The notes under the pieces: generated by a model
Seen by the model: only the letters and a program-made list of their open reading frames with translations
Database searches by the model: none
What the model was told of the DNA's origin: nothing
Position numbers and translations under genes: made by a program
From: Terfezia claveryi
Taxonomy: Eukaryota; Ascomycota; Pezizomycetes; Pezizales; Pezizaceae
DNA: 64,000 nt
NCBI GenBank assembly: GCA_015179025.1
Contig: WHUX01000040.1
Span: 1 to 64,000, forward strand
Direction: 5' to 3'
Shown here: positions 6,335 through 63,609 of the stretch, one piece after another
How the letters are laid out: every line of letters begins with the position of its first letter
Numbering within the stretch: position 1 is the first letter of the stretch

Positions 6335-6362
6335 CGGGGGCACAACCAGACTACGGGGGCAC
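6335..6362 (-). mobile_element. Nano-insertion 1: 10 bp with perfect 9-bp duplication
   Basis: AACCAGACTA (6344-6353; TAGTCTGGTT on the minus strand) is flanked by CGGGGGCAC on both sides (6335-6343 and 6354-6362, 9/9). It lies in a GC-rich repetitive stretch (about 6290-6470) made of variants of GCGTCCCAGGCGCGGGAGCACC-type words. Confidence 0.85.
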
Positions 6363-6496
6363 CGTCCCAGTAACAACCGTCCCAGTGCGTCCCAGGCGCG
6401 GGAGCACCTGCCAAGCATTAGTGTTGCGTCCCAGGAGCACCGTCCTAGTGCGTCCGGACGACAAGCGTTTGGCGTCCTGATCTTGAGTTACAGTTG

Positions 6497-6797
6497 TAGG
6501 ATGATATGATGTATGTAAATGATGGCTTACCTTTCCTCACTCCTAACCCTGTACCTTCACCTTCTTCAGATCCCTCTTCCACTGAGAAACCTTTTGAGAC
6601 TTGCCTTCTCCTTCGTCCCTCACCTTTCACGGACCAAGCAGGACCGTCTAACGACGACTGCAATTCCTTTATGGGGTTTGTAGAATCCAGGATGATAGGC
6701 CGGGCCTCGTGATGCTTACCAACCTAACTGCTGCGAATCTTCTCGATCGATGCACCAACTGTAGGATGATATGATGTATGTAAATGAGCATGTATTT
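6497..6797. repeat. Direct repeat pair flanking a 245-bp unique segment
   Basis: An identical 28-bp block beginning TGTAGGATGATATGATGTAT occurs at about 6497 and 6770. The first copy is followed by a short open stretch (6506-6712), the second by unrelated sequence. The arrangement could be the ends of a very small LTR-like element or a simple duplication; no flanking target duplication was seen. Confidence 0.5.
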
Positions 6798-6960
6798 TCT
6801 AAGTCTATCTAACCGGCCAATGACCTTGTGGGCCCTGCCAAGCCTCGAGCCAAGCCCGACCTTCTAGACTAGCTAGCTTCCTATCTAAGTACTGCATATA
6901 TGCCGCTATGCAGCTAGGTATGCACTATGTAGTATGCAGCATGTGGTACTTAGTACCACA

Positions 6961-7632
6961 ACAGTGAACTCTCGATATAAGAATATTTGATATAAGAATA
7001 TACTTGATATAAGAATATCCCACCCCCCTGCCCCCATACAAAATAAGAATATATTTGATAGAAGAATATACTTGATATAAGAATATCCCCCCCCCTGCCC
7101 CCATACAAAATAAGAATATATTTGATAGAAGAATATTCTTATTTTCTCGAGGTTGTTTACTAAGGTATTCTTATAGCAAGAGTACCTGATTGGGTAATGT
7201 ATAAACAGCCTAGCTGGAATAGGAATGCTTATCGATAAGAAATACCCCACAACCAACAACACCACCAAAGACAATGCTGCCAAATACAACGCCGCCACAC
7301 ACAATACCGCGACACACAATATTGCTACACCTACAATACCACCTCCGAACCCCCGAACTAATTCGATATGCCTGCTAGTGGTGCATTGAAAAGTAAAGGT
7401 TGGACGGAAGAAGAACGCAAGGAGATATATGACTATGCACATGCATACTGCCTTCTTCACGTCATGGGGCGGTTCCTGGTTCTCCTGTACCTAGTTCTTC
7501 CTCTACCTCACGTTAATTCTCTTTTTGGATGTATACCTTTAGTAGTTACCCTGACATTTGATATAAGAATATATTTGATATAAGAATATTACTCCCCCCG
7601 CCGGACGATATTCTTATATCGAGAGTTCACTG
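6961..7632. mobile_element. MITE-like element with 26-bp terminal inverted repeats
   Basis: The left end ACAGTGAACTCTCGATATAA(GAATAT) at 6961 is mirrored at 7607-7632 as ATATTCTTATATCGAGAGTTC(ACTGT). Both termini carry extra GATATAAGAATAT sub-repeats, and the left side also has a duplicated block with C-rich runs (CCCCCCTGCCCCCATACA). The CAGTGAAC terminus and a TA on the right flank suggest a Tc1/mariner-type non-autonomous element. No transposase domain is readable inside. A diverged relative of its interior lies at 52560-52745. Confidence 0.75.
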
Positions 7633-7638
7633 TATACG

Positions 7639-7666
7639 CAAAATATATAGTCTGGTTCAAATTATA
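7639..7666 (+). mobile_element. Nano-insertion 2: 10 bp with 8/9 duplication
   Basis: TAGTCTGGTT (7648-7657) lies between CAAAATATA (7639-7647) and CAAATTATA (7658-7666), one mismatch. It is just outside the right end of the MITE-like element. Confidence 0.7.
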
Positions 7667-7674
7667 TTTCTTGC

Positions 7675-10728: not shown

Positions 10729-11010
10729 TGTAGGAAATACTCTTCCAATACATGTGCAACCATGTGAGTACGTCAACAACATATGGACATAGAGGCATGT
10801 GGATAAGAAAGTACGTCAACAACATATGGACATAGAGGCATGTGGATAAGAAGGCATATGACAAGCATGTGCGAATACGGAGGAGATATGTATATATAGA
10901 CTGCTAGAACCCCTAAAGCAGAGATATAGATCAAGCAAGCAATACATCTCTCTTACAGATCAATCCCCAATATCTACGTTCATATATCCTAAGATCTCAT
11001 AATCCTTACG
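10729..11010 (+). repeat. 5' LTR of the complete copia element
   Basis: Begins TGTAGGAAATACTC and ends AATCCTTACG. It contains a tandem duplication of a 42-bp block (GTACGTCAACAACATATGGA...), and TATATATAGA near 10890 as a possible promoter box. The terminal dinucleotides are TG...CG rather than TG...CA. Confidence 0.93.
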
Positions 11011-11022
11011 GGTTATGAGCCC
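11011..11022 (+). other. Primer binding site, internal initiator-tRNA type
   Basis: GGTTATGAGCCC directly abuts the 5' LTR. It is complementary to an anticodon stem-loop sequence of the GGGCTCATAACC kind, which contains the CAT anticodon. Copia of Drosophila is known to prime from an internal initiator-tRNA-Met fragment, and the match here fits the same mode. The partial copia element carries the same core at 5435-5444. Confidence 0.75.
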
Positions 11023-11052
11023 GGAGCTTCAAAAGCGCCACTTCAACATACA

Positions 11053-12636
11053 ATGTCAAGCTTTGCAGAAGCCTCAGGGTCGGGCAACGACTCAATGAGG
11101 CCTCCAGAAGCCCCCAAAAGCACGAACACAACACCCGATCGAAAAATAACCACACTCACGACCAAACTAAATGGATCAGACAATTACCCTGAATGGGTCA
11201 CAACTATGAAACTTTACTTCCAAATGATCCAACTAGGAGACCATCGAGCATGGGATATTATCGAAGGAACATACTGAAAACCTCCAGATAAGCCACAAGA
11301 ATGGCTGGATGGGAATCACTACATTCTTCTTACCATCCTAAAAAATAGCGAACCCCAAGTCCGTAGTCGAATTGCGACAGTGGAAAAAGCCAAAGACGCC
11401 TGGAATACCCTCAAACAAGCCTATGAAGGAAGAACAGCAACTGAATTCCATTCTTTATTAAGAAGCTTGGTATATCTCCACTATGACGATAGAAAACACT
11501 CGATCTCAGAGCACATCACAGCATACGAAAAACTCTGGAATACCTTCTCAGGCATTATCGCTCGAGCTGACCTTACCAAGGATACTGGATTTGGTAAAGG
11601 ATTACTGGCCTTCTCTAGATGTGAGCAGGTTAAAACCGAATTTCTACTCATGTCACTACTTACATTCTATGCAAGTACTGTAGAAAATGTCAGGTCAAAA
11701 GAACAAACCTACGACGATACTGCACGGAAAATAAACGAATACATTACCGCTAGGCAAAAAGGCCAAAACCAACACAAAGAAAACAACAGCAATCCATTGG
11801 TTCAAAGAATAGCCTTGAACGATAAACGTTGCAGCTATTGCATAGGTAAGGGATGGCAAGGTCTCAATCACAATGAAAATGAATGTTATACCAAGAAAAG
11901 GGAACAAGGGAATGCTGCCAAACGCCAGAAACGAAAGAAGGATGAAGAAGCCGTTATTGTGCAGATAACAATAGGAAAAGCAGACGGAGGACCAACAAGA
12001 GCATACCAATATGATACGGCTGCATCTCATCACACAACGAACGAACTTGGAAGGCTATCGGAAATACAGGACAATCTCAACCTAGTGGTAAAAGGACATA
12101 ATGGAGCAGAATCCATCTGTACCACTATGGGTACACTGACACTCCAATGTAATGGAAGAACGATATACCATAAAGAATGCCTATATAATCCAACATATAG
12201 CAATATCATCAGTGGAGAAAGGATGCTGCATAAACATACCCTTCAAGTGCAGGGAAAATCAGCCAGATTGTGGAAGGGGAAAAATATTATATATAACATG
12301 AAAAGAGACATAAAAGGCGCCCTCTGGATAATACCTGATAAAGTCACATTATAGCAACTAGCTATCCAACCACCAAAGGCTGCCCTCGCCCAATTAACCA
12401 CTGAAACCGAATTAGCTATCCAACCACCAAAGGCTGCCCTCGCCCAATTAACCACTGAAACCGCCCAATCAGCTATCCAACAACTAAAAATCTTACATGA
12501 ACGATATGGGCATATCTCACTCAATACCTTAAAAAATCTCCCCGAATATCAGTTACTAGGCAAAATAATCCAACCAACAATTACCTGCGAGGCATGTCAG
12601 CTTAGCAAAGCAATAAAACTACAAGCAAAAAGCGGA
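11053..12636 (+). pseudogene. Copia gag and protease, two internal stops
   Basis: Starts MSSFAEASGSGNDS at 11053. The gag region carries LNGSDNYPEWVTTMKLYF and later AYEKLWNTFSG and LLMSLLTFY, then a cysteine knuckle CSYCIGKGWQG..H..C and a protease motif YQYDTAASHHTTN. TGA at 11275-11277 replaces the Trp expected between EGTY and KPPDKPQEW. TAG at 12352-12354 falls where a Gln codon fits. A 57-bp in-frame duplication (19 residues, LAIQPPKAALAQLTTETE) lies at about 12357-12470. The frame is otherwise open and identical with the downstream integrase frame. Confidence 0.9.
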
Positions 12637-15279
12637 TAAGGGATAAGGACATCTAAACCATTGGAACGATTACATGCAGACTTAGTTGGGCCTATAGATC
12701 CAATGACTCTTGCCAGCCAATATAAATATCTCCTACTAGTAACCGATAACTATAGCAGATATATAATAGCAAGAGCTCTAAGAAATAAGAGTGATGCAGC
12801 AGGAGCACTTATTGGAATTATTAATGCTCTAGAAAATAAGACCACCTACCAATACAAAGTTGTCCAAATACAAGCAGACTGGGGAGGCGAATTCCATACT
12901 CTCAGACTCGATACCGAACTTCAGCAAAGGGGAATCACCCTTAAAGAAACTGTACCAAGGCATAGCGAAACTAATGCTATAGCAGAAAGAACAAATAGGA
13001 CCATTATGACAATGAGCAGAACAGCCTTACTAGCAGCGAATATGCCAAAAAACCTCTGGGACAAAGCTGCCCACTGGGCAGTATACACAAAAAACCAAGT
13101 TCCCCATAAAGGCCTAAATGGAAAAATTCCTATTGAAGTACTATTCAATAAAAATGCCTTGCAAGAACGCACAAATCTAAGACCATTCGGCCAAAGAGTC
13201 ATTTGCTTTAACTATGAGAATAAAGCCTCAGATAAATTAGTCCCTCGAGGGTATACTGCTCGAATCGTTGGATATACAACTATATTTGGTACATATATAA
13301 TGATCAATGAAAAAGGAAAATGCACCTTAGCTAAAAATCCCGCAAAAGCTCAAGAAAGTGAGCTCGAAAAAGCTCAAGAAAACGAGCTCGGAAAAGATCA
13401 AGAATACGAGCTCCAAAAAGGTCAAGAAAGCGAGCTCGAAAAAACCGAAGAAAGCGAGCTCGGAAAAGCTCAAGAAAGCGACCTCGCAAAAGCTCAACAA
13501 AGCAGAAAAGCTCAAGAAAATGACCTTGGAAAAGCTCAAGAAAGCGAGCTCGGAAAAGCTCAAGAAAGCGACCTCGCAAAAGCTCAACAAAGCACTCAAG
13601 ACCCCACCCTGCAGCAAGGGAGGCATCGAAAAAGTGCTGTAGAATGGATAGAAGAACTTGGGGAACGAAAATCTAAAAGACAACGAAAGGCCACTGAGAA
13701 AGCTACGATCAAGGTCACTGAAAAAGCCACAATCAGAATAGTCAACTCTGACCATCCAACAGATGCACAAACCAGATCCTCTGCACAAGCACATGAATGG
13801 GCAAAAGCACGAACTAAAGAAAGAGAGCAATTGCAGAAATATGGCGTATTCACAAGAATCACTAAAGAAGATATCCCAGAAGGGACCAAGATTGTAGATA
13901 CCAAATGGGTCTATACAATAAAGCGAAAATTAGACGGAAGTATTGAGAAATACAAAGCCAGAAAAGTAGGGAGAGGATTTACTCAGGAGGATGGGATCAA
14001 CTATGATTCCGACAAAACCTACGCACAAATGATGAGATCCGAAACATTGAAAATCCTGCTTATACTGGCCATGTATAAAAAATGGAGAATTCGGCAGTGG
14101 GACGTGGTAGCTGCCTACTTGCAGGCTCTTTTACATCATGATGTCTATATTTCGGATATAAATGAAAATGGAGAGACCGAATACTGGAAGCTTAACAAAG
14201 CTCTATATGGGCTAAAACAAGCAGGGTATGAGTGGTTTAAGACATTAGAGAAGATCCTAGCACTTGCAGGACTCCATCAATGCATTGGAGATGAAGGGAC
14301 CTATACAAACCATGATAATTCCTTCATTCTGGGAACTCATGTCGATGACCTTATAGGAATTGCGGATAATGAGACAATACTCAAAGAATTCGAAGAAAAA
14401 ATCGAGGAAAAAATTGAGCTTGAAAAGCGTGGGAATCCAGAGAAACTCCTAGGAATTGAGCTTAAGTGGAACAACACAAATATAGAAGTCATAATGACCC
14501 AAAAGGCACTTATAGAAACAATGGCCTCAAAATACCTCCTCCACGGCGAACCGCAACATAAGAATTCCTTACCCATTAATCCAGAAGTATATGGCGACTC
14601 TAATGACCATTTCGAAGATGCTAAGAAATATCAAGCACTTACAGGAGGACTACTTTATATTGCAAGAATGACAAGACCTGAGATATCTATCCATGTCAAC
14701 CTTCTGGGACGGTGAGCATCTAAACCTTCCACAACAAATTATAGAGCTGCTTTAACTATTCTCCAATATCTCCAGAACACCAAGCATTTAGGACTAATTC
14801 TATGCAAACCTACGGATTTACACCTCGTCATATATGCAGATGCATCCTACGGTGGTGAACAAGCGAGATCCCAAACAGGAGTACTCATGACTCTCGGTGA
14901 TCAACCAGTAGGATGGTACAGTTGCCGTCAGGATACTGTATCCTTGTCAATCACCGAAGCAGAATATATTGCTGCATGTGAAGGAGCCAAAGATGCAGCT
15001 TGGGCACAACAACTCCTAGATGAACTTGGATTATCACTAAAACCTACGGTAAAAACAGATAGTGAAGGAACCTTCAACCTAGCTCATACCTCTCGCTGTT
15101 TAAGACGAACTAGGCATATTGAACATCGATACCACTATCTACGCCAACAAGTACAAGCAAAAAAATTAGCTATAACAACTATCCCAGGCAAGGAAAATCC
15201 AGCGGATATTCTTACCAAGATTACGCTCATGGTTACCATTAAAAAATGGCAAGACCGGTGGATGAGATTGGCAGAGTAG
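12637..15279 (+). pseudogene. Copia integrase, RT and RNase H, two internal stops
   Basis: Same frame as gag, entered after TAA at 12637-12639. Integrase core: HADLVGPID, LVTDNYSRYI, QADWGGEFH, and the Glu in HSETNAIAERTNR. A repeat-rich linker follows (see 13346-13600). RT: DTKWVYTIKRK, QWDVVAAYLQA, YGLKQAGYEWF, and the catalytic GTHVDDLIG (HVDD in place of the usual YVDD). TGA at 14713-14715 breaks the frame just after VNLLGR, with CGA to TGA the simplest origin. RNase H follows: YADASYGG, SLSITEAEYIA, RTRHIEHRYHYLR, GKENPADILTK, stop TAG at 15277. Four stops for one polyprotein leave this copy non-autonomous. Confidence 0.92.
13346..13600 (+). repeat. 24-bp coding minisatellite between copia integrase and RT
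   Basis: Around ten imperfect 24-bp units encode variants of KAQESELG or KAQESDLA. They keep the frame and lie exactly between the integrase C-terminus and the RT. The high Glu/Lys/Gln content suggests an extended charged helix. Confidence 0.88.
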
Positions 15280-15286
15280 AGGAGGG

Positions 15287-15568
15287 TGTAGGAAATACTC
15301 TTCCAATACATGTGCAACCATGTGAGTACGTTAACAACATATGGACATAGAGGCATGTGGATAAGAAAGTACGTCAACAACATATGGACATAGAGGCATG
15401 TGGATAAGAAGGCATATGACAAGCATGTGTGAATACGGAGGAGATATGTATATATAGACTGCTAGAACCCCTAAAGCAGAGATATAGATCAAGCAAGCAA
15501 TACATCTCTCTTACAGATCAATCCCCAATATCTACGTTCATATATCCTAAGATCTCATAATCCTTATG
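15287..15568 (+). repeat. 3' LTR of the complete copia element
   Basis: Starts TGTAGGAAATACTC and ends AATCCTTATG, colinear with 10729-11010. The terminal CG of the 5' LTR is TG here. Target duplication TCTCA follows. Confidence 0.93.
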
Positions 15569-15639: not shown

Positions 15640-16110
15640 GCTGATAATGGGTTGCACTCCTGCCAGGGCGAGCCTAAGGCAGGTCTGGGTTGGTGTTGGC
15701 ACTGTAGACATGATGGCGATGTTGTCAATTGACCATACATATGTACTGTATATACATTTGACTACCCAGCACAGCTGGTATTTGGGATCCGAGTCAGACT
15801 TCAAATATGAGGCTACCCCGAAAGTTTTGTCTACAGCACTTCGTGTAAAGGGCTCGCCTCAGCTGCCTGTTGAGTCTCAATCTAAAAATGATAACCAGAC
15901 TAAAAATGGTGTAGTAGGGAGACTACCAAGATAGGACTAGCTAGCTTAATTACAAAGTAGGGAGATACCGGAAAAGGTATGGGCCAAAAAAGGACTACCT
16001 GTGTGATTTCTCAAAAAGGCAACCATCCAACGTTACCGAACAAGTCAAAAATTCCAAATACCCATCGTGCTATGTACGGTGGGAGACTTTCCCGCATGTA
16101 CTCCGTCTAC
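15640..16110 (+). repeat. Dispersed repeat family A, copy 2
   Basis: Shares with 25610-26065 the blocks TTTGACTACCCAGCACAGC, GTCAGACTTCAAATATGAGG, AGTCTCAATCTAAAAATGAT and GGGAGATACCGGAAAAGGTA, and with 7675-7900 the last part. Its 3' end is interrupted by nano-insertion 3. Confidence 0.8.
15882..15908 (-). mobile_element. Possible nano-insertion with CTAAAAATG direct repeat
   Basis: AACCAGACTA (15893-15902) is flanked by CTAAAAATG at 15882-15890 and 15900-15908, a perfect 9-bp direct repeat, but the repeat overlaps the motif end, so the boundary is ambiguous. The same arrangement, with one change in the motif (AACCAGGCTA), is in copy 3 of family A, so it predates the spread of that family. 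Confidence 0.5.
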
Positions 16111-16147
16111 ATAGTCTGGTTGCACAACCCCTCCGTAGCCGTCTACA
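16103..16147 (+). mobile_element. Nano-insertion 3: 27 bp with perfect 9-bp duplication
   Basis: The insert 16112-16138 begins TAGTCTGGTTGCACAACC and ends CCTCCGTAG. It is flanked by CCGTCTACA at 16103-16111 and 16139-16147 (9/9). It is one of three longer family members that share a GCACAA and CCCTCC interior. Confidence 0.85.
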
Positions 16148-17314: not shown

Positions 17315-17341
17315 TATCGCTAATAGTCTGGTTATCGTTAA
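17315..17341 (+). mobile_element. Nano-insertion 4: 9-10 bp with 8/9 duplication
   Basis: TAGTCTGGT(T) from 17324 lies between TATCGCTAA (17315-17323) and TATCGTTAA (17333-17341), one mismatch. Confidence 0.65.
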
Positions 17342-19631: not shown

Positions 19632-19654
19632 GTGGTCTTGTGCCAACCAGACTA
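19632..19654 (-). mobile_element. Nano-insertion family copy, no duplication recognised
   Basis: On the minus strand TAGTCTGGTTGGCACAAGAC is present, matching the first 20 bases of the 22-bp insert at 56441. No 9-bp flanking repeat was found, so this copy may be old or truncated. The surrounding 19050-19640 has no supported gene; 19290-19345 is an inverted, diverged copy of 18180-18240. Confidence 0.55.
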
Positions 19655-25609: not shown

Positions 25610-26065
25610 GGGTCAGTAGTCATGCCGCCTAAGGCGGTTGTAGGAAGGGTCTAGGTTAGTGTTGGCAATGTATGTTCTGTTCAGCGAGGAGGCAAATGAC
25701 CGTACATATATATATTTGACTACCCAGCACAGCATCCAAGTCAGACTTCAAATATGAGGCTACTCCGAAATTTTTGTCTGAAGCACTGCATGTCAAGGGC
25801 TCGGGTGAAGTCTCAATCTAAAAATGATAACCAGGCTAAAAATGGTGTAGTCTGGTTGCGAGACTACCAAGATAGGACTAACTTAATTACAAAAAGGGTA
25901 GACTGGGAGATACCGGAAAAGGTATGGGCCAAAAAAGGACTACCTGTGTGATTTCTCAAAAAGGTAACCATCCAACGCTACCGAAACAAGAAGTCAAAAA
26001 TTCTAAATACCCATTGCGTGCTGCGGTGGGAGGCTTTCCCGCGTGGTCACCCACTGCAGTACTAG
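25610..26065 (+). repeat. Dispersed repeat family A, copy 3
   Basis: Colinear with 15640-16110 and with the 3' end hairpin of copy 1 (GCTGCGGTGGGAGG...CCACTGCAGT). It carries a TAGTCTGGTT at 25848-25857 where copy 2 has only TAGTAGG. Confidence 0.8.
25829..25866. mobile_element. Two opposed nano-insertion ends separated by 9 bp
   Basis: AACCAGGCTA (25829-25838), the 9-mer AAAATGGTG, and TAGTCTGGTTGCGAGACTA (25848-25866). The second unit has TAGTC...GACTA ends. The 9-bp spacing equals the target duplication length of the family, so two insertions may share one duplication. Confidence 0.5.
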
Positions 26066-31173: not shown

Positions 31174-31221
31174 AGTCATACGTCTGTGGAGGGTGTTGTG
31201 CCAACCAGACTAAGTCATATG
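31174..31221 (-). mobile_element. Nano-insertion 5: 30 bp with 8/9 duplication
   Basis: The insert 31183-31212, read on the minus strand, begins TAGTCTGGTTGGCACAACAC and ends CCTCCACAGA. It is flanked by AGTCATACG (31174-31182) and AGTCATATG (31213-31221). The homologous LTR at 3463-3480 reads TTGAGAGTCAGACGG without interruption. Confidence 0.8.
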
Positions 31222-31228: not shown

Positions 31229-31257
31229 CCGTCTGACTAGTCTGGTTACCGTCTGAC
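31229..31257 (+). mobile_element. Nano-insertion 6: 11 bp with perfect 9-bp duplication
   Basis: TAGTCTGGTTA (31238-31248) lies between two CCGTCTGAC copies (31229-31237 and 31249-31257, 9/9). Uninterrupted CCGTCTGACTCTCGTTAT occurs at 31113-31130, and the Ty3 LTR at 3485-3502 also lacks the insert. Confidence 0.92.
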
Positions 31258-32259
31258 TCTCGTTATTGTTATTATCTAGCGTTGGGTTGTGTTTTGAGAG
31301 TCGTGCCACTTTCCGGCACGCCTGTCGAAGGTTCCCTATCTCGGGAAGCCTATCCCATTGTCAGCCTTGGCACCATGTATATATGTCTTCTCGCTCTCGC
31401 ACTTACGTTGGATCCCCATCCAATGTCTTGTATATCAAATACAGACCTTGCTTGTCCCTGCGCCGGTTTACCTTCCTCGTACACCTCCCTTGAACAACTC
31501 TACAGCTCAGCTGCCCCCAACGAAGCATTCATCACACGCGACAGGAAGCCTCCGCGTGTCCCCAGCCAACCCTGCCCTCCGTGACATCGTCCGTGACATC
31601 GTCCGTGACATCGTCCGTGACATCGTCCGTGACATCGTCCGTGACATCCGTGACAGGTGTCCGTATCACACACGTAGCCTCCTCTGCGTGTGCGACCCCC
31701 CTCGTCCCTTCCCAGGCGTACCCCTTGGTCGCCCTGACCCTCGTGCCTCGCTACAGCAACCCTCTTAAAGCGTTCAAACCCGGGCCGAAACCGCTCGAGG
31801 AGCAAGCCAAATATCCTGGAGTTCTGGATCACACAGCAACCTTGTAGTTTGTAACTGAAAGTTCTTCGCTGACCTTGGGTTCTCGAACAAGACATATCCT
31901 TATTCACATTTGGCCAGAAAAGCTTAACCTCACAAGCGTCACAAACAGGCGGACCAGTAAGGAATTCTTAAAGTCTGTGCCCAGAAAAATGATGCAGGTA
32001 CATATATGTTCCCGATATTGCAGAGCAAATCGTTACCTAGCACGATATCAAGAGAAGCAACCATGAGCATCCCCCGAATATGTTCCTGTAGTAGGGCATA
32101 TATTGGGTGAACTGCTTTCAGTTGTAAAATATGGGATGCGTTAGAGTGGTAGGTGTGCTAGGAGGGGCCGTTGGGCAAGAGCAATAGCCGTTCTCGATTT
32201 GTTCGGACATAACCTAACCTGCCAAACGTTAACCAAGTGTTTATATCGTCATGGACACA

Positions 32260-32854: not shown

Positions 32855-32883
32855 GTGCTGCTGTAGTCTGGTTAGTGCTGCTG
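32855..32883 (+). mobile_element. Nano-insertion 7: 11 bp with perfect 9-bp duplication
   Basis: TAGTCTGGTTA (32864-32874) between GTGCTGCTG (32855-32863) and GTGCTGCTG (32875-32883), 9/9. Confidence 0.88.
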
Positions 32884-33835: not shown

Positions 33836-35166
33836 TTAGTGACCACAACAGCAGCCCTTCTTTGGTGCATCGGTTGCCTTTCCAGAGTCGACTGGCAACT
33901 TTGGTGCATCAGTTACCTTTCCAGAGTCGACTGGCAACTTTGGTGCATCAGTTGCTTTCCCAGAGGTGACTGGCAACTTTGGTGTATCGGTTGCTTTCCC
34001 AGAGGTGACTGGCAACCTTGATGCATCAGTTGCTTTTCCAGAGTCGACTGGCAACTTTGGTGTATCAGTTGCTTTTCCAGAGGTGACTGGCAACTTTGGT
34101 GCATCAGTTGCCTTTCCAGAGTCGACTGGCAACTTTGGTGCACCGGTTACCTTTCCAGAGTCGACTGGCAACTTTGGTGCATCAGTTACCTTTCCAGAGT
34201 CGACTGGCAACTTCGGTGCATCGGTTACCTTTCCAGAGTCGACTGGCAACTTTGGTGCATCAGTTGCTTTTCCAGAGGTGACTGGCAACTTTGGTGTATC
34301 GGTTGCTTTCCCAGAGGTGACTGGCAACCTTGATGCATCAGTTGCTTTTCCAGAGTCGACTGGCAACTTTGGTGCATCAGTTGCTTTTCCAGAGGTGACT
34401 GGCAACTTTGGTGTATCGGTTGCTTTTCCAGAGGTGACTAGCAACTCTGGTCCATCATTGGTTGGACTTCCAGGCACAACTGACAGGCTGTACTCATCCG
34501 TGATATCATCATACTAAACACAGACTTAGCCAAATGTCAAGAGAGAAGGATGATTGTCTAGCAGGAGCATGAAGGATAACAAAAGTACGAGAGGAAGAAA
34601 CAAGAGAATCATGAAAGGGGAAAGCTCTCACCTCTCCATCACCAGTAGTACATGCACCCCCAACCTCCGTAAGCATCTCATCCCTAAGCTTCTTCTTTTC
34701 AAGCTCACATGTTGGCTTTGCCCCCACACTGTAGCCTCCTTCGAGGTGGATCTCAAGTTGGAGCTTGTGTTGAGTATCTGCCTCGGTGAAGCCAGTAGCA
34801 ATGGAAGTGGCAGAGTAAGTGGTAACCTCGTCAGGATTTTGATAGGCTACAGTTTCCTATAGCCATACAAGGCCCCGTTAGAATATCTCACGTCGTACAC
34901 TCTAGGGGAGACTAAAAGACAAACCTTAGTTGGAATTTGGGCACCCATTTCCGTTTCCTGGCTCTTGCAGCAGGAAGTAGTAGCACGCTTCCCACAGGTA
35001 GTTGGTTGACAAGACATCTTGAAGCCCAGTTAGAGGATCTCAGCCCGTACATTCTAGTAGAGAGTAAAAGACAAACCTCAGTTGGAGTCTGAACACCAGT
35101 CTCCCGCTCCTGGCTCTTGTAGCGGGTAGAAGAACGTTGACCACAGTTACCTGGTGGGCAAGACAT
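33836..35166 (-). CDS. Four-exon gene: Cys-containing N-terminus, 13-residue repeats, CCC tail
   Basis: Model of 361 residues. Exon 1 35077-35166 starts MSCPPGNCGQRSSTRYKSQE; exon 2 34925-35017 is a duplicate of exon 1 starting MSCQPTTCGKRATTSCCKSQ; exon 3 34632-34856 encodes an acidic, possibly folded segment (NPDEVTTYSATSIATGF, LEIHLEGGYSVGAKPTCELE); exon 4 33836-34513 encodes 15 tandem 13-residue units of type KLPVDSGKATDAP and ends KKGCCCGH. All junctions are phase 0. Introns have GT/AG ends and CTAAC-like branch sites (CTCTAACTGGG, TTCTAACGGGG). Exon 2 carries its own ATG, so alternative first exons are possible. The unit alternates VDSGK and VTSGK. The basic residues plus three Cys at the end could be a lipidation site; this is inference. 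Family not recognised. Confidence 0.75.
33866..34450 (-). repeat. 39-bp minisatellite, 15 units, inside the CCC-tail gene
   Basis: Each unit is 39 bp and carries GGCAACTTTGGTGCATC (plus strand) and a TTTCCAGAG core. Two variant classes (GTCGACTGG and GGTGACTGG) occur in a non-random order, with a block of about five units appearing twice, so the array grew by multi-unit duplication. Confidence 0.9.
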
Positions 35167-36970
35167 CCTGAGTGAAGAAGATACTAAAGTGAAGAGTTTA
35201 GAGAAAAACGGAGTAGTTGAGGACTTTTGGTCTGAAGAGGAGTGATGTTCTGAGAGCTGTGAGGATGGAAGAGAAGAAGAGAAAAAAGGAGGGGGAGAGA
35301 GGGAGGTATAAGTACGTGAGGACAAGGAGCCACCAAGGTGCCTCCGAATGCTTCTTCTGGTACTTGCACCATGATGCCAAGCCCGACATCCACGACTATA
35401 TCCGCAAGTGGTAATGTATGGACTATGATAGGCGCTTTGGAGGGTGTTGATGCAGAACACCGCAGTTTGAGATTCTAGATTTAGGACCGGACAAAATGAG
35501 ATTCTGCAAGCGAACCAATATGTACAAAACTTGTACTCACGAGAATATTTTCAGCTTCTGTAAACGCATTACTAGTTGTTCTCGTGCCTTCTCTAGTCCC
35601 AAACCTAATATCATGTAAGTACGACTAAAAATATATATATATATATCGTTGATTGGTATTTTGGCAACAACATCTCGATCTATGGGCCTAAGGGTTTGAA
35701 AATACCCAGATTATTCTTTTGTGGCATGGACATATGAATGGTCAGGTGTATGTAATATAGGGGCCCTCATATTTGTTACAAGTTGTAGAAAGTGAGAACT
35801 TTGGATAGCTTTTCACGGAATGTAACATTTTTACTGTTTGTTACATTAAAGAAAAAGTTTACAAAACGAAAATTGTCATTATATAATTAGGAAACCAGAT
35901 TTTACTGTAGTGCGTTACAAGTTATAACAAATCATTCATTATGTTGTATGTATGTAGCCAGCCTTTTTTTGCTCGTTTTGTCTATGCCTCAACTTGTCTC
36001 ATTTATCGACAAGTGGTCACACACGCCCGACAGACCATTCAAATATCTCGTTGTCTGTTTTTTTTTTTTGAATCGCTGCCTCAAGGACGATTTGAGGTAA
36101 TTTTTTAGATACACTCAATCTATCCCCAAACGTCTCTCATAAAATAGAACCTTTACTCCTCCAACAGACCTCATTTTTTGAGATTCAACCCGCAGAAAGA
36201 ATAAGTCGAATCCCCCCTTCCCTGGGCTACTTAAAGTGGTGATAGAAAACTAGCTGTGTAGGAAGGCATCGACCTAACTACTTCACATACAAAACGAAAC
36301 GAAACAAAAAATCGAGTCAAATAAGCCGTTACCCTCATGTGCACATGTGGTATCGAAATCGACATAGATACTAGAATAATTACCAACTCTGAATTCCGAA
36401 TCCCAACCAGGAAAAAGTAACGCCTAGGTCTTCCTCTCTCTAGGTATGAAAAAAAAGACTTGAAGACTTCGGTACCATAGTAACTGTGACGGAAAATGTG
36501 GATGATATACCCGACCCCTCCTAGTCTGGTTCTTCTTCCCTTCTCCCTCCCTTCCCTCCCCTAATCACCTAATAGTACATTCTCCTGCTCACATTAACAG
36601 AAACATTATAACTACTATGGGTGAAAGAAAATCTCATAATTCATCATTCATGAACACTCTGGTATACGAATCTGCCTATCAAGCAAAAGCAATCCAGCGA
36701 AAACAAAAACCAAATCATACGCTCACAAAAGCAAGCACAATCCTAATCCTATGCGCAAGCAACCAGAAAAAAAAAGTTATTCAGCAACAATAGATACCCG
36801 TAGCCCAAAAAAGCCAACAGCTAAAATCCTAGATATCGCATCGCACCTTTAAATAATCCCATCCCATTCTTCTAATCTCTGAAATCCGCCACCAAATCGC
36901 CTCCAATGTTGACTGCTCTCTGCTTTCCCAACAAGATGCTTCATCCCTCGCCCTCAACTCAACTACAAAA
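35167..36970. other. Upstream region and intergenic DNA
   Basis: 35167-35460 is a purine-rich likely 5' region of the CCC-tail gene, with GTATAAGTACG at about 35308. 35460-36970 has no supported gene; it contains an ATATATATAT tract at 35632-35647 and a T13 tract at about 36058-36071. Confidence 0.5.
36522..36531 (+). mobile_element. TAGTCTGGTT copy without clear duplication
   Basis: Exact 10-mer in a pyrimidine-rich stretch. The low-complexity flanks (CCCCTCC / TTCTTCCC) prevent a reliable duplication call. Confidence 0.45.
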
Positions 36971-55510: not shown

Positions 55511-55555
55511 TAGTCTGGCCCTCCATGATGGCAATAATACCGCACAACCAGACTA
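55511..55555. mobile_element. 45-bp element with both termini (TAGTCTGG...CCAGACTA)
   Basis: Begins TAGTCTGGCCCTCCATGATG and ends CCGCACAACCAGACTA, so the outer 8 bp are perfect inverted repeats of the nano-insertion terminus, and the right end carries the GCACAA extension seen in the longer inserts. The flanks (GAAATAGGC / AGTAGCGAT) do not form a clear duplication. Confidence 0.6.
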
Positions 55556-56431: not shown

Positions 56432-56471
56432 TGTCCGGGATAGTCTGGTTGGCACAAGACTATGTCCGGGA
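56432..56471 (+). mobile_element. Nano-insertion 8: 22 bp with perfect 9-bp duplication
   Basis: The insert 56441-56462 is TAGTCTGGTTGGCACAA followed by GACTA, so it has 5-bp inverted ends TAGTC/GACTA. The flanks are TGTCCGGGA on both sides (56432-56440 and 56463-56471, 9/9). Confidence 0.9.
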
Positions 56472-57173: not shown

Positions 57174-58133
57174 TCAAAAGTACGGAAACAGGCGCTTGTG
57201 CTCGCTCTTTACTTCCTGTCGGCGTTCTACTCTTCCGCGTAGTTCATAGTTTCGTTCTTCGAAAGTATGGTCTCTTGTAGGCATACGCCGGCGACCGACA
57301 CCAGCAGCATTCCGCACAATTGCGTCGGAATCCCCAGTAAAGTCATCGTATTCGTTCGGGGGGTCAAATTTGTCAAGTTCGAAGTAAGGGTCTGCTCTGG
57401 CCGGGGGGGTATTGGCTCTTGGTGGTACAGCATGGAGTAGCACCAATAGGCGTACCGGCTTAGCCTTTGTCATTCGGAAAAATGCTCTCACCTCCGCATC
57501 GGAATTGAGACTGGTATAGTCGGCAGGAAAGGTGAGGTTAGGAGGGGTCGGGTCCTCGAGCGCGCCAATAATTTCACGAACCTTCCTGTCAGGAGGAACA
57601 TATGTCTTGACCATGTCCCAAATCCCGTCCAGAGTCATTAGGTGAATGACTCCAAGTTTCCTCCTGCCACGTACATCCCAAATCCACCCATTAACATCCC
57701 TATGTGCTCCCACCTCAGGATCCCCAACCCAGAATGCAACGGCTTCCCCTTGAATTTCCCCATCGGAGACTTCATCATCTACGTCGGAAACCATATCAGC
57801 GTGTACCCTCTTTCGCGCACGCTTGATAGCCAAGTTTTTGGCTATATCTGACCGCTTTTTGAGGCAATCTTGGAGTAGTGCCTCCAAGGCTTTTTTATGG
57901 AATTCAGAGCCCGACGCCAGTCGATCTCTGATGGATTGCCTAAATCCAGTCAGGCCGCGGGCGGCAACCACCAGTGCATCTTTCTCTGCTTGACTAGCCG
58001 CACCCCAACTGCGAATAGAATGTTGGGCACAATAATCCTTCACAGCATTGCGCCACGAGGTGTAGTCTGCGTCTCGAGTGTCCCAACCCAAATCAGCCTT
58101 AGAGTTCCGAATCAGGTTCTTCGGAGTGACCAT
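57174..58133 (-). CDS. Intronless orphan protein, 319 residues
   Basis: Continuous frame starting MVTPKNLIRNSKADLGWDTR. The N-terminal 110 residues are helical (DYTSWRNAVKDYCAQHS, SQAEKDALVVAARGLTGFRQ, HKKALEALLQDCLKKR) and end in a basic KRARKRVH segment that could act as a nuclear localisation signal, followed by an acidic DVDDEVSDGE stretch. The centre (VAFWVGDPEVGAHRD, WIWDVRGRRKLGVIHL) looks like a small beta domain. The C-terminus is Pro-rich then basic (RVERRQEVKSEHKRLFPYF). No catalytic motif or known domain is apparent. A nano-insertion lies directly upstream of the ATG. Confidence 0.65.
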   Translation of the reverse strand: MVTPKNLIRNSKADLGWDTRDADYTSWRNAVKDYCAQHSIRSWGAASQAEKDALVVAARGLTGFRQSIRDRLASGSEFHKKALEALLQDCLKKRSDIAKNLAIKRARKRVHADMVSDVDDEVSDGEIQGEAVAFWVGDPEVGAHRDVNGWIWDVRGRRKLGVIHLMTLDGIWDMVKTYVPPDRKVREIIGALEDPTPPNLTFPADYTSLNSDAEVRAFFRMTKAKPVRLLVLLHAVPPRANTPPARADPYFELDKFDPPNEYDDFTGDSDAIVRNAAGVGRRRMPTRDHTFEERNYELRGRVERRQEVKSEHKRLFPYF

Positions 58134-58136
58134 TCT

Positions 58137-58165
58137 AGCTGAATATAGTCTGGTTAAGCTGAATC
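58137..58165 (+). mobile_element. Nano-insertion 9: 11 bp with 8/9 duplication, next to a start codon
   Basis: TAGTCTGGTTA (58146-58156) between AGCTGAATA (58137-58145) and AGCTGAATC (58157-58165). It is 12 bp upstream of the minus-strand ATG at 58133, so it would be in the 5' leader or core promoter. Confidence 0.8.
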
Positions 58166-58445
58166 CGGTTTAGTCTGCGTTAGCCTTAGTGCGTTGGGTA
58201 AGAGTTTGAGTAGTCTGGTTAGAGTTTGGGTAAATAGAAGATTACTGTATTGGGAAATTTGCCTAATAGCAATACCTGGTCTTTGCGGTCTACACAAAGG
58301 TCGCTGAGGTCTGGTTTAGTCTGTGTTAGCCTGAGTACATCGGATAAGAGTTTGGGTAAATAGAAGATTACCCGTATAGGGAAATTTGCCTATAACCAAT
58401 ATCTTGGTCTTTGTGGTCTACACAAAGGTCGCTGAGGTCTGGTTA
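58166..58445. repeat. Tandem duplication, about 135-145 bp, upstream of the orphan gene
   Basis: Two diverged copies (about 58170-58315 and 58316-58445), both with TTAGTCTG(C/T)GTTAGCC, GTAAATAGAAGATTAC, GGGAAATTTGCCTA and GTCTACACAAAGGTCGCTGA. The first copy carries nano-insertion 10; the second does not. Confidence 0.85.
58202..58230 (+). mobile_element. Nano-insertion 10: 11 bp with 8/9 duplication and empty paralogue
   Basis: TAGTCTGGTTA (58211-58221) between GAGTTTGAG (58202-58210) and GAGTTTGGG (58222-58230). The second tandem copy reads AAGAGTTTGGGTAAATAG at about 58345, without insert or duplication. Confidence 0.9.
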
Positions 58446-58449
58446 AGGT

Positions 58450-60480
58450 AGCTGAATCGATGCCGTACATAGAATAGGAATGATGTTCTGACCAGGACTA
58501 CCGCAGGGTCTTTTATACTACATTGGCAATGGCCTTCATTTGAGATTTGAAATCATAACCGTTTGATGTCAAACTTCAAAACCTATAGAATGTAATGCAC
58601 GTACCGGGTCATGTCCAAACCCGATGGCACTAGGCCAACCCAAGATGAGCTTGATCTACAAACGCAGGCACGAGACTACAAACGCACTAGTCTAGTATAC
58701 ACAAACTTCAAGTTTCCTTCGAATATTAATAAATTCCGAGATTGCTACAGTAACGTTGTATATATACCCCTATTATGAGCTTGTCACGTAATTCTCTCCA
58801 TCTATCACCTGGAGTTTGTTGCCCTATGCTTTGCGAATCCTCACTAGAGTAGTTTGGAGGCCTTCAGAATTCCTCCAAGCTATGAACTCACTGCCCTATC
58901 TAGATGCGGCCATAAAAGAACATTGAGATTGTATATAGCAATACAAGAGACTTTTCGAAGGCTTGTTCCTCAGGGAGCAGGACAGGCGAAAGACTACTGA
59001 CAGTCTGTGTAGGTCTATTGTTGGGAGCTTTGTGTATGGATTCATCGTGATAGATCTGTTTTTGAGGATAAGACATATGAACCCCAGAGATGCATTATAA
59101 CTGGATCACCAAAGGACAGAGGAGTGGGGATAAACGGGCCTGGGGTGGAAACACAGACAAATACCCAGCTCACCACAGCTGCTAGTATCCATGAAAACTC
59201 AGTACAAGGAGCTAGCAATGAAATGGTGAAGCGACTGTGGACATTTGGGAGCGGAGGAGGAGGATGTATCGACTGGCAGTACGTTTTCCTCATTGAATAG
59301 TTTACACGAGATATAATAACTGACCTGCTTTAACAGCCTTGCAATGAAATGAAGATTCTCGTTACTACAGGTTTCTAGCGTTATAAGATAGAAATCGTTC
59401 CTGCCAAACAGGTACGAATTGAGTTGTTAGTTAGGTAGTCAGCAGAATATATAGCATTTATTTACCAAGCCTGACATAGGTAAAGAGGTTAATACACCTG
59501 TATTCCTATCTTCTATTTGGTTTCGGGTGTGGTGATAAAGCACATGTATTAATTAGCCTTTGAGTAGCAATTCTAAACAGACCTTCAAGTCACATTGCTT
59601 TCATTTTGCGCAGGGCAACCATGCCTGTGACATAGGTATTTAACATATGTCCACAAAGAAAAGATATCTCGATCCAGGTCCCCTTCTAAATCCTACACTC
59701 TCGGTCCTACAAGCAAAAGCTTTAAAGAACAAAGCAATTCTCAGTGAACTTGTACAGTACCAACTCAATAAACCTAGAACCCCTGCTTAAGGTTCGCCCT
59801 CAATACACCCCATCTTCCTCGCTTTGGTCCTAGTTCTTTCTACACAAGGAACCTTCCCGAACCTTACACTCAACTGTTTGAACGTTGGCCTGTCATTAAT
59901 ATAAAAAGGGCCAGCGTGCACGTGAGGAAACCTGGACTGAAGGGGTAGATAGTGATATGCGGCCTTGGCACCTGTAGAAGTTTCGACGTCCTTATGTCGA
60001 CATATTATTCAGCAGCCTTGTGTAGTGCAAATCACATAACAAACAGACCAGCAGTACATTGCCCAATGAAGATTCTCGCAGCGCTTATCAAACGTTGGCG
60101 TGGATATCGAATGCAACTAAATTCATGTCTCACTTGTGTAGAGAGTACAGTCCACATTCTTCACAAAAAGCGGCAATCTCCTTTTGAGAAATTAAGAGGT
60201 ATCTACCTAAGGTACTCCTTACCACAAGACTAATCTGGACCACTACTGTTCATAAAGTTATCGCTTGTTTGCTTAACTATGCAGCCGAGAGATCAGTACC
60301 GTGAAACATTATCAAGTTGAGCACGCCAAGATCTATTCAATGGGGTATAGTTAAAAATTATTGAATCTAGAAGTCATGTAAGATTAGTTTATACAAGTGA
60401 CTCTACGAGGGGCTGTGCCCACCGACTAATACAAGTGATGTCACAGAAGATCAGGTAGTTGGATTATAAACTCGCTTTAC
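58450..60480. other. Gene-free intergenic region
   Basis: No supported gene or repeat. The frame at 59952-60233 has no recognisable domain. Confidence 0.45.
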
Positions 60481-60970
60481 TTGGCCATGGACGGTGCTGG
60501 AACACTCTCTGAGCTAATGGCTTTGGTTTCAAGTTGTAGGTTTGACCGGTGGAGGCAGCTATATTCAGGGACATCACTTGTAGAGGCTTCCTTGATAGCA
60601 TTATTACGGATAATCACACTCCAATCATATGACAATGAGCGTCATTGGAGATCCTTACTTAGGCAAATTGTGCGCTCTGCTTTGCTCGGGCAATACCGAG
60701 GATATCCGCTAGTTTTTTTTTTTTTTCCAGATGTGCAATATTTCCAATATTATGCCCCGGGGTGAGTAAGGCTGAATTGGCGGTTTGCAAAGAGTCAGCG
60801 AGGGATCGGTTAACCTCATCATACATATCCCCAGTGGAACAGAATGCCATGACAGTTATATTGCCTCACAGTATTGTTTATGCATTGCAGGACTGCCCTT
60901 ATCATACAGTTTGGGATGCTGTCATCAGGACTATCGCAAGCTGATACATACCAAGGTCAGAATGGCATGA
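60481..60970 (+). CDS. Hypothetical two-exon ORF
   Basis: The frame from 60481 (MAMDGAGTLSELMALVSSCR, DNERHWRSLLRQIVRSALLG) runs 94 codons to a GTGAGTAAG donor-like site at about 60762. An acceptor TTGCAG near 60890 would join LPLSYSLGCCHQDYRKLIH and stop TGA at about 60970. A T11 tract interrupts the first exon. There is no domain and no conservation evidence, so this is speculative. Confidence 0.25.
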
Positions 60971-61491
60971 AGAGCAGGCTTGCTCTCCTTGATTTAGCGG
61001 GGCTACTGGCACTTTTCACGAGTTATTGCACTTTAAAGGGTACTCCATATCGCCTGGCAAAATTTCATGGTCAGTCACTTGGTAACAAAGCAAATGTAAC
61101 TCCCTATTAGTCTTGCGATCGATAATTACAACTTCAGCTAACTTAGCACGCACAGCACTTCATTTTCGTACTATGTTTTGGTACCTTGGCTCCGCAGATT
61201 TCCATTCGCGTTTCAGTGCTTAAACAATTGAACTTACGTCCGCCTACGTTAGTTGATACCCTTGCGTCCGCCCCCCTAATAAACAGGCTCCAGCAACGCG
61301 GTCCCACATAATCCTCTCGTTGATATCAGTTCCAGTACCTGCGGAGCAAATGTTCAATGCCAAAAGTCATTCCGGGACCCTGTCTAACTTCCTTGCTCTG
61401 GATACACGCTTTTCACACTTATCAGCTTTCTGATCAACCTCCCCTTAGGCCTTAATGCCCTCCAGGCTAGTCTTAATGGATACTCACTCAC

Positions 61492-62018
61492 CTTTACTGC
61501 TTCGTCATAAGTAAAAAGTCGCTCTAACCGGCCTACGTATTCCCCAAATGTCTCCTCAAGTACATAGTACACATTTCCCGGGTCAATCGTCGATGTGAAC
61601 TCTGGTTTGTTGGCTCTTTGTGGCTTAAGCTGCTGGAAGTGCTACTCATCGTATAGCCCCCATGGCAACCACCGGGGTTCATCTGCGGCCGGCTGAGAAA
61701 CCATTCCGAGCACTACATTCTCAGGCTGTTTAAGAGATACATTGCTTTCTGGTAGTCTTTGACAAACCGAACAAGAGCCTACAGCAGTTACATCAGCTAT
61801 ACCCCCGTGCTAAAGCATCATATTGTACTTACGGCTGCTAGATCGAATGAACCACTAAAGTCGGAATTGACATTTGCAATTTTCGTTTCCAATGCCGCGA
61901 ACTTTGTTTTCATATTTCCAAACTTTTCATTCATCTCCCCTAAACGGTTTTCCATCGCTCATGCAAGTTCCCCGATAGTTTTGTGAACGTCCCCTTTGAA
62001 GTCTCCCAAGTCCACCAT
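61492..62018 (-). pseudogene. Broken coiled-coil gene, two stops
   Basis: The ATG at 62018 reads MVDLGDFKGDVHKTIGELA, a stop (TGA), then AMENRLGEMNEKFGNMKTKF and ETKIANVNSDFSG to a GTAAGT donor at about 61833. After the intron (acceptor CTGTAG) comes GSCSVCQRLPESNVSL, EPRWLPWGLYDE, a stop (TAG), HFQQLKPQRANKPEF and VYYVLEETFGEYVGRLERLF, ending at a GTGAGTGAG donor (61491). The first exon is a heptad-repeat coil. Both stops fit Trp codons changed by G to A or C to T. It could be a decayed host gene or a gag-like ORF; intron presence favours a gene. Confidence 0.5.
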
Positions 62019-62497
62019 CACCGTCCCTAGTTAATTGTTACCAAGCACCGATCTGTCCTGAGCCAGGTTGAGATTATCTCAGATTATCTCAAATGTGTCT
62101 CCGGCATCTCTATGCCCACATAAATAGGCCCGCATGGTAGGCAACTTCATCCCGCCTTCGGTTTTCCTGTGCTTGTCGGGTCGGAGTGCGTGGTGTTGGT
62201 GTCATTGTTATCATGAAGTTTGGAGTGCGGGTTGTAACGCAGATTTGGGCGAACATTAATGTCCTAGGGCTATATATAGCACGAGAGCTTGGTCTTCAAC
62301 TGTTTCTTTTGTTCGGTGTCGAGGCATATGCTGCAACCCTTTTCCACTAAGGGTTCGCTGTTAACATATACCGTAGAAGTAAGAGGTGTCCGTGCATGCT
62401 TATAGCGGAAAGAGCAAGTAGTCGACACTTACGCCTTTTTCCAATAACAGCTGCAAATAGTTTCCTGACACTTCGCAGAAGCATATATAAATTATAA

Positions 62498-63033
62498 TCA
62501 ACCATTTGAATCAAGCTCTTCAACATCCATTCTCATTGCGATCAAAGTCATAACGACAGATCCAGTGCCATCCCCAATAGCAGTATATATCCGCCCACAA
62601 GAAGACCTTTTGCCTCGGTAATTGGGAGGGCTGCGAGGTGTCTCCATCGACAACCGGTCTTGGAAAGGCTCGGGGTTACAAACATCGGATAAATCAATTG
62701 GAAGGTTCAACACCGCGATCTGTGTGACTGAAAGATCTCATATCAGATAGCATTGACCAATTGCCAGCAATTCAGCCGCTGTCAAATAGAAAACCGATCC
62801 GGCGCTTGAATCAATCCCTAGACCAAGATGTCTGAGCCGCTTTTATGCTCTTGATGCCTTGAGATCCTCCACACAGGCAGGCCTCCCCAATCGAAGAGAG
62901 AGAGTACTCCAGTTGGACATAATGGAGGCATTGTCGGAGTTGCAAGAGTCCCGTCCAGATCCCAGGCCTGATCTTCTTGACGGCTGATTAACTCCCGGAG
63001 CAAGACTGAATGTGCATGGTTCAATTGCATCAT
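62498..63033 (-). CDS. Hypothetical two-exon ORF
   Basis: The ATG at 63033 (MMQLNHAHSVLLRELISRQE, VLSLFDWGGLPVWRISRHQ) is open to about 62818. An acceptor-like TCACACAG near 62722 leads to IAVLNLPIDLSDVCNPEPF, SPPNYRGKRSSCGRIYTAIG and SVVMTLIAMRMDVEELDSNG, stop at 62498. The donor is not clear. The stretch looks protein-like in both halves, but no domain is recognised. Confidence 0.35.
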
Positions 63034-63599
63034 TACCGTGGTTTGTCCGTGTAATCTTTCCTGATTTTCAGAATGTGGGGCTACAGATTCATATATGGAA
63101 AGTCAGCGGCACGCTCTGATTCTTTTTCAGTTCAATTTCTTCAATTCCGCGTCTTAAGGGTTGATTTAATAGCCACATGTGAGGAGAAATATGAGAAATT
63201 GGAGCTGCTAGGATATAATACTCACCAGAGGATGATAGCTAAAACCCAGCTTTTGCCGCAGGACCTCTTCGTGCCTCCACAGCCCTCGATCCGCAAGAAC
63301 TCCTGCTCTCCCCAAGAGGCACTAGCCGTTCATAGCAGGCTATAGGATGTGAACGGAAATCATTGTAAGGTTTCTACCTCTTACCCTCACCCACATCATA
63401 GATTAGATGGATATCGATTGATACGCGAAAAACTCTTTGGAATTAGTAATTCGCTCACCATTTCAACTTTGAAACTGGGTTCCCAGGCTCATAACCTTTT
63501 GGAAATAAAGGGCGGGGTGCGATAGATGACGAAGTATCGGTTAGGTGTGGAAATGGAGTGGTTGTGTCGTTAGCTCTTGAGTCGATCATCTTAGGCTGC

Positions 63600-63609
63600 A
63601 ACCAGACTA
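63600..63609 (-). mobile_element. TAGTCTGGTT copy with weak duplication
   Basis: AACCAGACTA preceded by GCTGC. Flanks ATCTTAGGC and GTCTAAGGA match at only 6 of 9 positions, so a duplication is not established. Confidence 0.45.

Follow-up and report, generated by a model that had tools for sequence, protein, structure and literature searches.

Short, nearly always one-ended TAGTC insertions with 9-bp target duplications in the genome of Terfezia claveryi

Tip inserts in the window

The stretch of DNA analysed here, referred to below as the window, comprises the 64,000 nucleotides at positions 1 to 64,000 of contig WHUX01000040.1 of Terfezia claveryi (assembly GCA_015179025.1; 72.6 Mb in 794 contigs). 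Scattered along it are very short inserts, called tips in what follows, which begin with TAGTC, are recognised here by the 10-mer TAGTCTGGTT, and are flanked by direct repeats of 9 bp. The 10-mer has 16 exact matches in the window, against a mean of 0.13 and a maximum of 1 in 100 shuffles. The original prediction, made from the letters of the window, had listed sixteen positions, and each of them proved to be an exact match, an abundance far above the shuffle expectation. The ten duplications it described were likewise recovered, five of them complete (9/9, at motif positions 6344, 16112, 31238, 32864 and 56441) and five with a single mismatch (8/9, at 7648, 17324, 31203, 58146 and 58211); the other six copies show 2 to 4 mismatches, a level that most random positions reach too. 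The sixteen copies are given below, followed by a member of another TAGTC subfamily and by a probable member.

6335..6362, minus strand: 10-bp insert TAGTCTGGTT (6344-6353), 9/9 duplication GTGCCCCCG (6354-6362 and 6335-6343)
7639..7666, plus strand: 10-bp insert (7648-7657), 8/9 duplication
15885..15911, minus strand: 9-bp insert (15894-15902), duplication with 2 mismatches, in a dispersed repeat whose related copies have a similar insert at the same place
16103..16147, plus strand: 27-bp insert (16112-16138), 9/9 duplication CCGTCTACA
17315..17341, plus strand: 9-bp insert (17324-17332), 8/9 duplication
19645..19654, minus strand: motif copy TAGTCTGGTTGGCACAAG..., 3 mismatches, duplication at chance level
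25848..25857, plus strand: motif copy, 2 mismatches, no clear duplication, adjoining a one-mismatch copy (25829-25838, minus strand) in a dispersed repeat
31174..31221, minus strand: 30-bp insert TAGTCTGGTTGGCACAACACCCTCCACAGA (31183-31212), 8/9 duplication
31229..31257, plus strand: 11-bp insert TAGTCTGGTTA (31238-31248), 9/9 duplication CCGTCTGAC
32855..32883, plus strand: 11-bp insert TAGTCTGGTTA (32864-32874), 9/9 duplication GTGCTGCTG
36522..36531, plus strand: motif copy, 3 mismatches, duplication at chance level
55511..55555, minus strand: motif copy (55546-55555) and an opposed CCAGACTA 45 bp on, 7 mismatches outside the pair and 4 at each arm
56432..56471, plus strand: 22-bp insert TAGTCTGGTTGGCACAAGACTA (56441-56462) with TAGTC and GACTA tips, 9/9 duplication TGTCCGGGA
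58137..58165, plus strand: 11-bp insert TAGTCTGGTTA (58146-58156), 8/9 duplication
58202..58230, plus strand: 11-bp insert TAGTCTGGTTA (58211-58221), 8/9 duplication, insert-free local duplicate near 58332
63600..63609, minus strand: motif copy, 3 mismatches, a decayed duplication at best
60391..60437, minus strand: other TAGTC subfamily, 29-bp insert TAGTCGGTGGGCACAGCCCCTCGTAGAGT (60400-60428), 9/9 duplication CACTTGTAT, hairpin at the variable end
58659..58687, minus strand: probable member, 11-bp insert TAGTCTCGTGC (58668-58678), 8/9 duplication

Target duplications and insert anatomy

Throughout, statements on the whole genome are pattern counts, and statements on anatomy refer to 324.6 kb of read sequence, 60.6 kb of which was picked for matches to the motif or to Mutator-like elements (MULEs). 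Loci with an L number are stretches fetched around such matches and are too short for long elements. The unselected sample of 264 kb consists of the window and of C1:1-200000, and holds 47 exact copies of TAGTCTGGTT.

In this sample, a 9-bp repeat abutting TAGTC was sought at a distance of 8-40 bp, with pooled shuffled 10-mers (n=240) as controls. An exact repeat accompanies 17 of the 47 copies, against 7 of the 240 shuffled 10-mers, and with at most one mismatch tolerated the figures become 26 and 14. The same test at the opposite end of the motif gave 3 exact repeats and 10 with at most one mismatch, and random positions, scanned over the wider range of 8-120 bp, yielded 27 exact repeats and 70 with one mismatch in 2000. 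The remaining 21 copies have 2-4 mismatches and are individually indistinguishable from chance, some of them resembling decayed duplications. That the duplication lies flush with TAGTC, as originally claimed, is borne out by the offsets, with 17 exact repeats at offset 0 against 3 and 5 one base off. These 17 repeats extend over 9 bp in twelve cases, over 10 bp in four and over 12 bp in one, so that the stagger can be taken as fixed at 9. Moreover, a scan for 9-bp repeats around a short spacer that made no use of the motif put TAGT first among the spacer starts (12 against 0.87 expected), followed by TGTC (6 against 0.76) and TCGT (4 against 0.55); many rows of the latter two come from a tandem array near 31587-31646 or from other repeats, others lie outside, and one is a TTGTCTGGTT variant. 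Control 10-mers in the 264-kb sample do not equal the motif in flanking repeats, nor do all the copies sit in one known repeat: most of their flanks are mutually dissimilar, although dispersed repeats hold some of the copies.

For five insertions there is a related site that lacks both the insert and the second copy of the duplication:

C1:152134: 15-bp insert
C1:152612: 34-bp insert
C1:65902: 34-bp insert, junction read by eye as the aligner misplaced the gap
Window 58211: 11-bp insert
C1:174483: second insert inside a first one, junctions read by eye as the aligner gave no gap

That we are dealing with real insertions and a 9-bp target duplication is, in our view, virtually certain. Their target sites have no A/T-rich motif (53 sites). 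At the first duplicated position, 23 of them have C and 7 have A, and 40 have C or G, a bias that is partly due to the 14-bp inserts, which share a C with the next base of the element.

Across the genome, TAGTCTGGTT occurs 7,569 times (3,752 and 3,817 copies by strand) against 161 for the reversed motif, and the 15-mer TAGTCTGGTTGGCAC occurs 2,885 times (1,432 and 1,453) against 0 for its control. The base 3' of the 10-mer is A in 889 genomic copies and C in 361; in the 264-kb sample the corresponding counts are 9 and 5, two of the nine A copies representing one dispersed repeat. This excess of A, although the first duplicated base is more often C than A, fits one base of an opposite end in ...CTA, and the A may be the last base of that end, an added base or the mark of a subfamily. 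On C1 the copies are mildly clustered, neighbours lying 45-500 bp apart in 6 cases where random placement gives 2.0 (P 0.011); those of the window show no clustering excess (2 adjacent pairs at 45-500 bp against 1.6).

The inserts have a constant end, TAGTC(T), and a variable opposite end that is flush with the second duplication. The originally given length of 9-30 bp is too narrow as a range, which runs from about 7 to 36 bp, with a few rows, nested copies included, reaching 58 bp. Lengths were pooled for copies starting with TAGTC[TCG][GC] and having a duplication with at most one mismatch (66 copies, 39 of them unselected); in this pool, which covers inserts of at least 6 bp and may count two-tip inserts once per strand, they fall into classes of 9-12, 13-16 and 22-36 bp, with none of the 66 at 17-21 bp. 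A single exact case of 7 bp comes from scans that used TAGTC alone and start at 6 bp, the 10-mer search being blind to inserts shorter than the motif.

A hairpin of at least 3 bp ends 12 of the 22 inserts of 24-40 bp, against a mean of 3.6 and a maximum of 10 in 2000 shuffles of the tails, a control that overstates the significance because the insert copies are related. The hairpins at the variable end include CTC-GTA-GAG, CTCC-ACA-GGAG, CCTCC-TGTT-GGAGG and CCCG-CCAAA-CGGG, and the inserts stop just past them. In family I-B, 223 genomic copies reach CTCGTAG, 150 reach CTCGTAGAG and 4 go on as a palindrome. Odd bases occur at other variable right ends (TAGTCTGGTTA, TAGTCTGGTTGTA, TAGTCTGGTTGGCATC).

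Other TAGTC subfamilies behave like the TAGTCTGGTT family. One lead is TAGTCTCGATCAGACCCTCGTAGAG, whose first 16 bases have 363 genomic copies (control 2) and of which two copies, at L030 and L052, have duplications. Further 11-bp inserts differ in sequence (TAGTCTCGATC, TAGTCTCGTGC, TAGTCTCGTCC, TAGTCTTGGCA, TAGTCTAATTG), so the first length class is independent of any one sequence; the scan for TAGTC alone yielded 28 rows, several of which are expected to be chance.

True two-tip inserts exist, but they are few, and nearly all inserts are one-ended. Opposed copies of the 15-mer occur genome-wide at 46 places at 30-60 bp and at 18 places at 61-90 bp. The stems of the 46 pairs, whose flanks are mostly unread, measure at least 20 bp in 17 cases and at most 16 bp in 21, and among the pairs are palindromes of 51 bp, around a 3-base centre, and of 50 bp, with no centre. 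When a second arm of 9 nt is accepted, the oriented matches number 178, which is no more than about 6% of the 2,885 15-mers. Eleven opposed pairs of up to 60 bp have their flanks read: two are two-tip inserts with the duplication outside both arms (L029, 30 bp, exact; C1:88848, 34 bp, one mismatch), six consist of separate inserts, at least one of the arms being flanked by a duplication of its own (C1:16783, C1:166760, L030, L032, L051, L058), and three are unclear (window 55511, L031, L054). With the window insert at 56441, whose second tip is just GACTA, L029 and C1:88848 make up three two-tip inserts with a duplication of their own. Since 6 of the 11 readable pairs are separate inserts, the opposed pairs counted may for the most part be single inserts that lie close together. 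The idea that the two-tip form is the rule (second arms of 9-14 nt against at least 15 nt, about 100 to 78) was dropped, as most of the readable pairs are separate inserts.

Two repeats that carry tips deserve mention. Four copies of a dispersed repeat (window 15885-15911 and 25829-25857; C1:5604; C1:177376) have a TAGTC-type insert at one place, and one of the four has an extra motif copy alongside; this set of copies is useful for dating. At L031 (C2:194448-197489) TAGTC inserts are dense, an insert and its flank form a tandem repeat (58 bp), and the 9-mer CGTCAGATC occurs three times.

Search for a parent and origin of the tips

The original prediction proposed looking for a long element with the motif at its termini and a transposase gene, and none was found in the 264 kb. 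A relaxed search for TAGT...ACTA gave one 1,394-bp pair (C1:7802-9195), lying between exact copies of GTACATACA, which we take as chance. A parent of about 600 bp, considered for opposed 15-mers 0.6-1.1 kb apart at L045-L049, was rejected, given that the inverted repeats there are just the common tip of 15-21 bp and that six copies in four of these five loci carry duplications of their own. A perfect hairpin of about 50 bp is disfavoured as a parent because only 4 of the 223 family I-B copies pass the loop as a palindrome. The length classes, the variable-end hairpins, the subfamilies, the near one-endedness, the insert-free sites and the lack of a body-bearing parent in 264 kb all go beyond the original prediction.

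MULE transposase has 21 matches in the genome. Among 12 MULE loci of about 3.2 kb that were read, both ends are visible in two; the terminal inverted repeats (TIRs) of these two copies begin with CGGACTGACTC, not TAGTC, and are flanked by exact 9-bp duplications (TTGTTGAGG and TGCTACCTA). At L038 (C773:255169-258447) the transposase match lies in an open frame of 575 residues between long TIRs, in which TAGTCTGGTTGGAGAG lies about 100 bp from the inner edge; TAGTCTGGTTGG occurs inside the long TIR without a duplication and is not read as an element end. MULE ends as a source of similar scars were discarded, CGGACTGACT being found just once in 264 kb. Of the originally suggested Mutator-like transposition, insertion with a fixed 9-bp duplication is supported and the link to MULEs is no more than plausible, the two copies with readable ends having CGGACTGACTC there and not TAGTC. 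A phage search with one window frame gave no match.

The fixed stagger of 9 bp suggests the work of a DDE-type transposase. The explanation that we tentatively prefer, while stopping short of calling it probable, is aborted transposition, the tips being end fragments of a DNA transposon whose ends read TAGTC, whose stagger is 9 bp and which may be MULE-like. One end of the element would be joined to the staggered target, and a strand grown or protected from the joined end would reach about 10, 15 or 30 nt; the stop near 30 nt would often come just past a small hairpin, as the nascent strand folds and leaves its template. The rest of the element would then be lost and the stump sealed to the opposite side of the target, and rarely both ends would leave a stump. 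Given the 9-bp duplication, the constant and variable ends, the length classes and the insert-free sites, all of them present in the sample, we infer an origin in transposition begun without keeping the element. The hairpin stops, the family I-B counts, the three two-tip inserts, the opposed pairs with stems of at least 20 bp, the A after the 10-mer, and the MULE transposase matches with the two MULE copies between exact 9-bp duplications speak for the same reading.

Several results weigh against aborted transposition. A search over spans of up to 15 kb for TAGTC...GACTA pairs flanked by matching 9-mers returned only the 22-, 30- and 34-bp inserts in an effective 264 kb, and no transposase linked to TAGTC ends was found. 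The strong one-endedness of the inserts (2 of 11 readable pairs two-tip) belongs here too, and the case for a two-ended parent is weaker because the opposed pairs are mostly separate inserts. Furthermore, lengths of 1-8 bp should be frequent among ordinary excision scars, and spacers in this range separate exact 9-mers in 14 cases, where spacers of 40-60 lead one to expect about 12, which is no short-scar excess; tandem duplications of 9 bp show no clear excess either (8 bp 13, 9 bp 10, 10 bp 6), spacer 0 giving 5 against 1.5 expected under another filter. The length floor near 9-10 bp is established in part, since the 10-mer misses shorter inserts. Conventional excision footprints were rejected for want of an excess of 1-8 bp scars or a clear one of 9-bp tandem duplications, and the lack of such short scars, together with the one-endedness, places direct insertion of tips close behind aborted transposition. 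Both options of the original prediction, a stub of a parental element and direct integration of short sequences, remain viable.

In the second of these, which we regard as possible, if on balance doubtful, a transposase encoded elsewhere would insert pieces of about 10, 15 or 30 bp with one TAGTC end; this would be one-ended transposition, whose second end is not sequence-specific and may be a hairpin. The length classes and hairpin ends agree with it, as do the absence of a 1-8 bp scar excess, a duplication that is exact at the variable end too, the lack of a long parent in 264 kb, and one-endedness itself (separate inserts make up 6 of the 11 opposed pairs). However, a duplex of 10-15 bp seems too short to be bound as a two-ended transposon, the right ends with odd bases (TAGTCTGGTTA, TAGTCTGGTTGTA, TAGTCTGGTTGGCATC) resemble independent events and not copies of a fixed unit, and three two-tip inserts do have their own duplication. 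Taken as a whole, we think it rather unlikely that a machinery regularly inserts single tips (roughly a helical turn, 15 bp, or 30 bp with a hairpin end) into targets staggered by 9 bp, with thousands of units per genome, far below transposon size, representing the output of one-ended integration and not excision damage.

A constant end paired with a truncated one, and a stop near a hairpin, could also arise if a template of about 30 nt or a hairpin template, RNA or DNA, ending in ...AACCAGACTA were copied onto the target 3' end and truncated, much as in 5'-truncated retroposition, the RNA version implying RNAs that end in AACCAGACUA. We consider this templated copying improbable: a fixed 9-bp duplication is typical of DDE transposases and not of integration by long interspersed nuclear elements (LINEs), the 53 sites have no A/T-rich motif, and two-tip inserts would require an additional step. 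Even less probable in our view is that the tips descend from near-perfect palindromes of about 50 bp, either miniature inverted-repeat transposable elements (MITEs) or foldback elements, truncated later by palindrome instability. The stems of at least 20 bp in 17 of the 46 opposed pairs, with the 51-bp and 50-bp palindromes among them, would suit such an origin, but only 4 of the 223 loop-reaching I-B copies continue as a palindrome, and later deletions would be unlikely to stop flush at the second duplication, as 17 of the 47 unselected copies do exactly. Chance, or a single repeat with the motif in its consensus, is scarcely credible when the motif has 7,569 copies and its reverse 161, and when duplications are found at 17 of 47 against 7 of 240, even if a few copies (C1:5604, window 15902 and 25838, C1:177376) do occupy the same position in a dispersed repeat.

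Should the tips be inserted directly, the minimum size of a transposase product would come down to about 10 bp, and the genome would possess a general source of 19-45 bp insertions (tip plus duplication) that ordinary repeat annotation overlooks. If they are stumps, the genome would be a record of very many failed transpositions with stop points at about 10, 15 and 30 nt, and the order of events at a transposon end would become testable. In either reading, copies with a clean duplication are markers with readable empty sites.

Known systems and neighbouring features

An open-access literature search turned up no description of such a tip-insertion family. One-ended transposition is a described idea, with one fixed end, one variable end and target duplications, and is known from cases with long bacterial segments; the tips share these ends and duplications and differ in size. 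The original statement that no element of this form has been described needs softening, this idea and the TIR remnants of the MULE Muta1 (PMC5225508) being precedents. In yeast, Muta1 that excised from constructs lacking duplications on either side now and then left as much as 13 bp of TIR behind, and excision was about 90% precise when the element was flanked by 8- or 9-bp duplications (PMC5225508). For Stowaway, a small duplication and short end sequences are described as what usually remains (PMC4561436). The tips resemble such footprints (Muta1; Stowaway/mariner) as short end remnants, but differ in their length classes, their near one-sidedness, their thousands of motif copies and the absence of a parent in 264 kb; many remnants of a few bp, as expected of footprints, are not seen among the 1-8 bp spacers (14 against about 12 expected).

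MULEs are characterised by target duplications of 8-10 bp and by TIRs typically above 100 bp at both ends (PMC5225508). The tips have the 9-bp duplication in common with them, and the genome contains MULE transposase matches; unlike MULEs, the tips are nearly all one-ended, mostly below 40 bp and gene-free, and lack TIRs above 100 bp at two ends. With MITEs they share a high copy number, the lack of a gene and a target duplication of fixed length, but at 9-36 bp, and nearly all one-ended, they do not have terminal inverted repeats at both ends. AcademH transposons, which are described with 9- or 10-bp duplications (PMC10045372), are alike in duplication length (9 bp). From LINE retroposons and their short counterparts (SINEs) the tips differ by a duplication that is fixed at 9 bp and not variable, and by the absence of an A/T-rich signature at the 53 sites.

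Besides the tips, the window contains a Ty1/copia-like long terminal repeat retrotransposon at 10729-15566, with gag- and RVT_2-like frames and 280-bp direct repeats; these repeats are 99% alike, which suggests a recent insertion. For the protein of frame 57177-58169 the named relatives are from Terfezia, a genus of the Pezizaceae, and Tirmania. A second copia-type gag frame lies on the minus strand at 3859-5436 (Retrotran_gag_2, E 4.9e-19), and a 39-bp tandem repeat of about 15 copies, open in frames on both strands, occupies 33860-34457.

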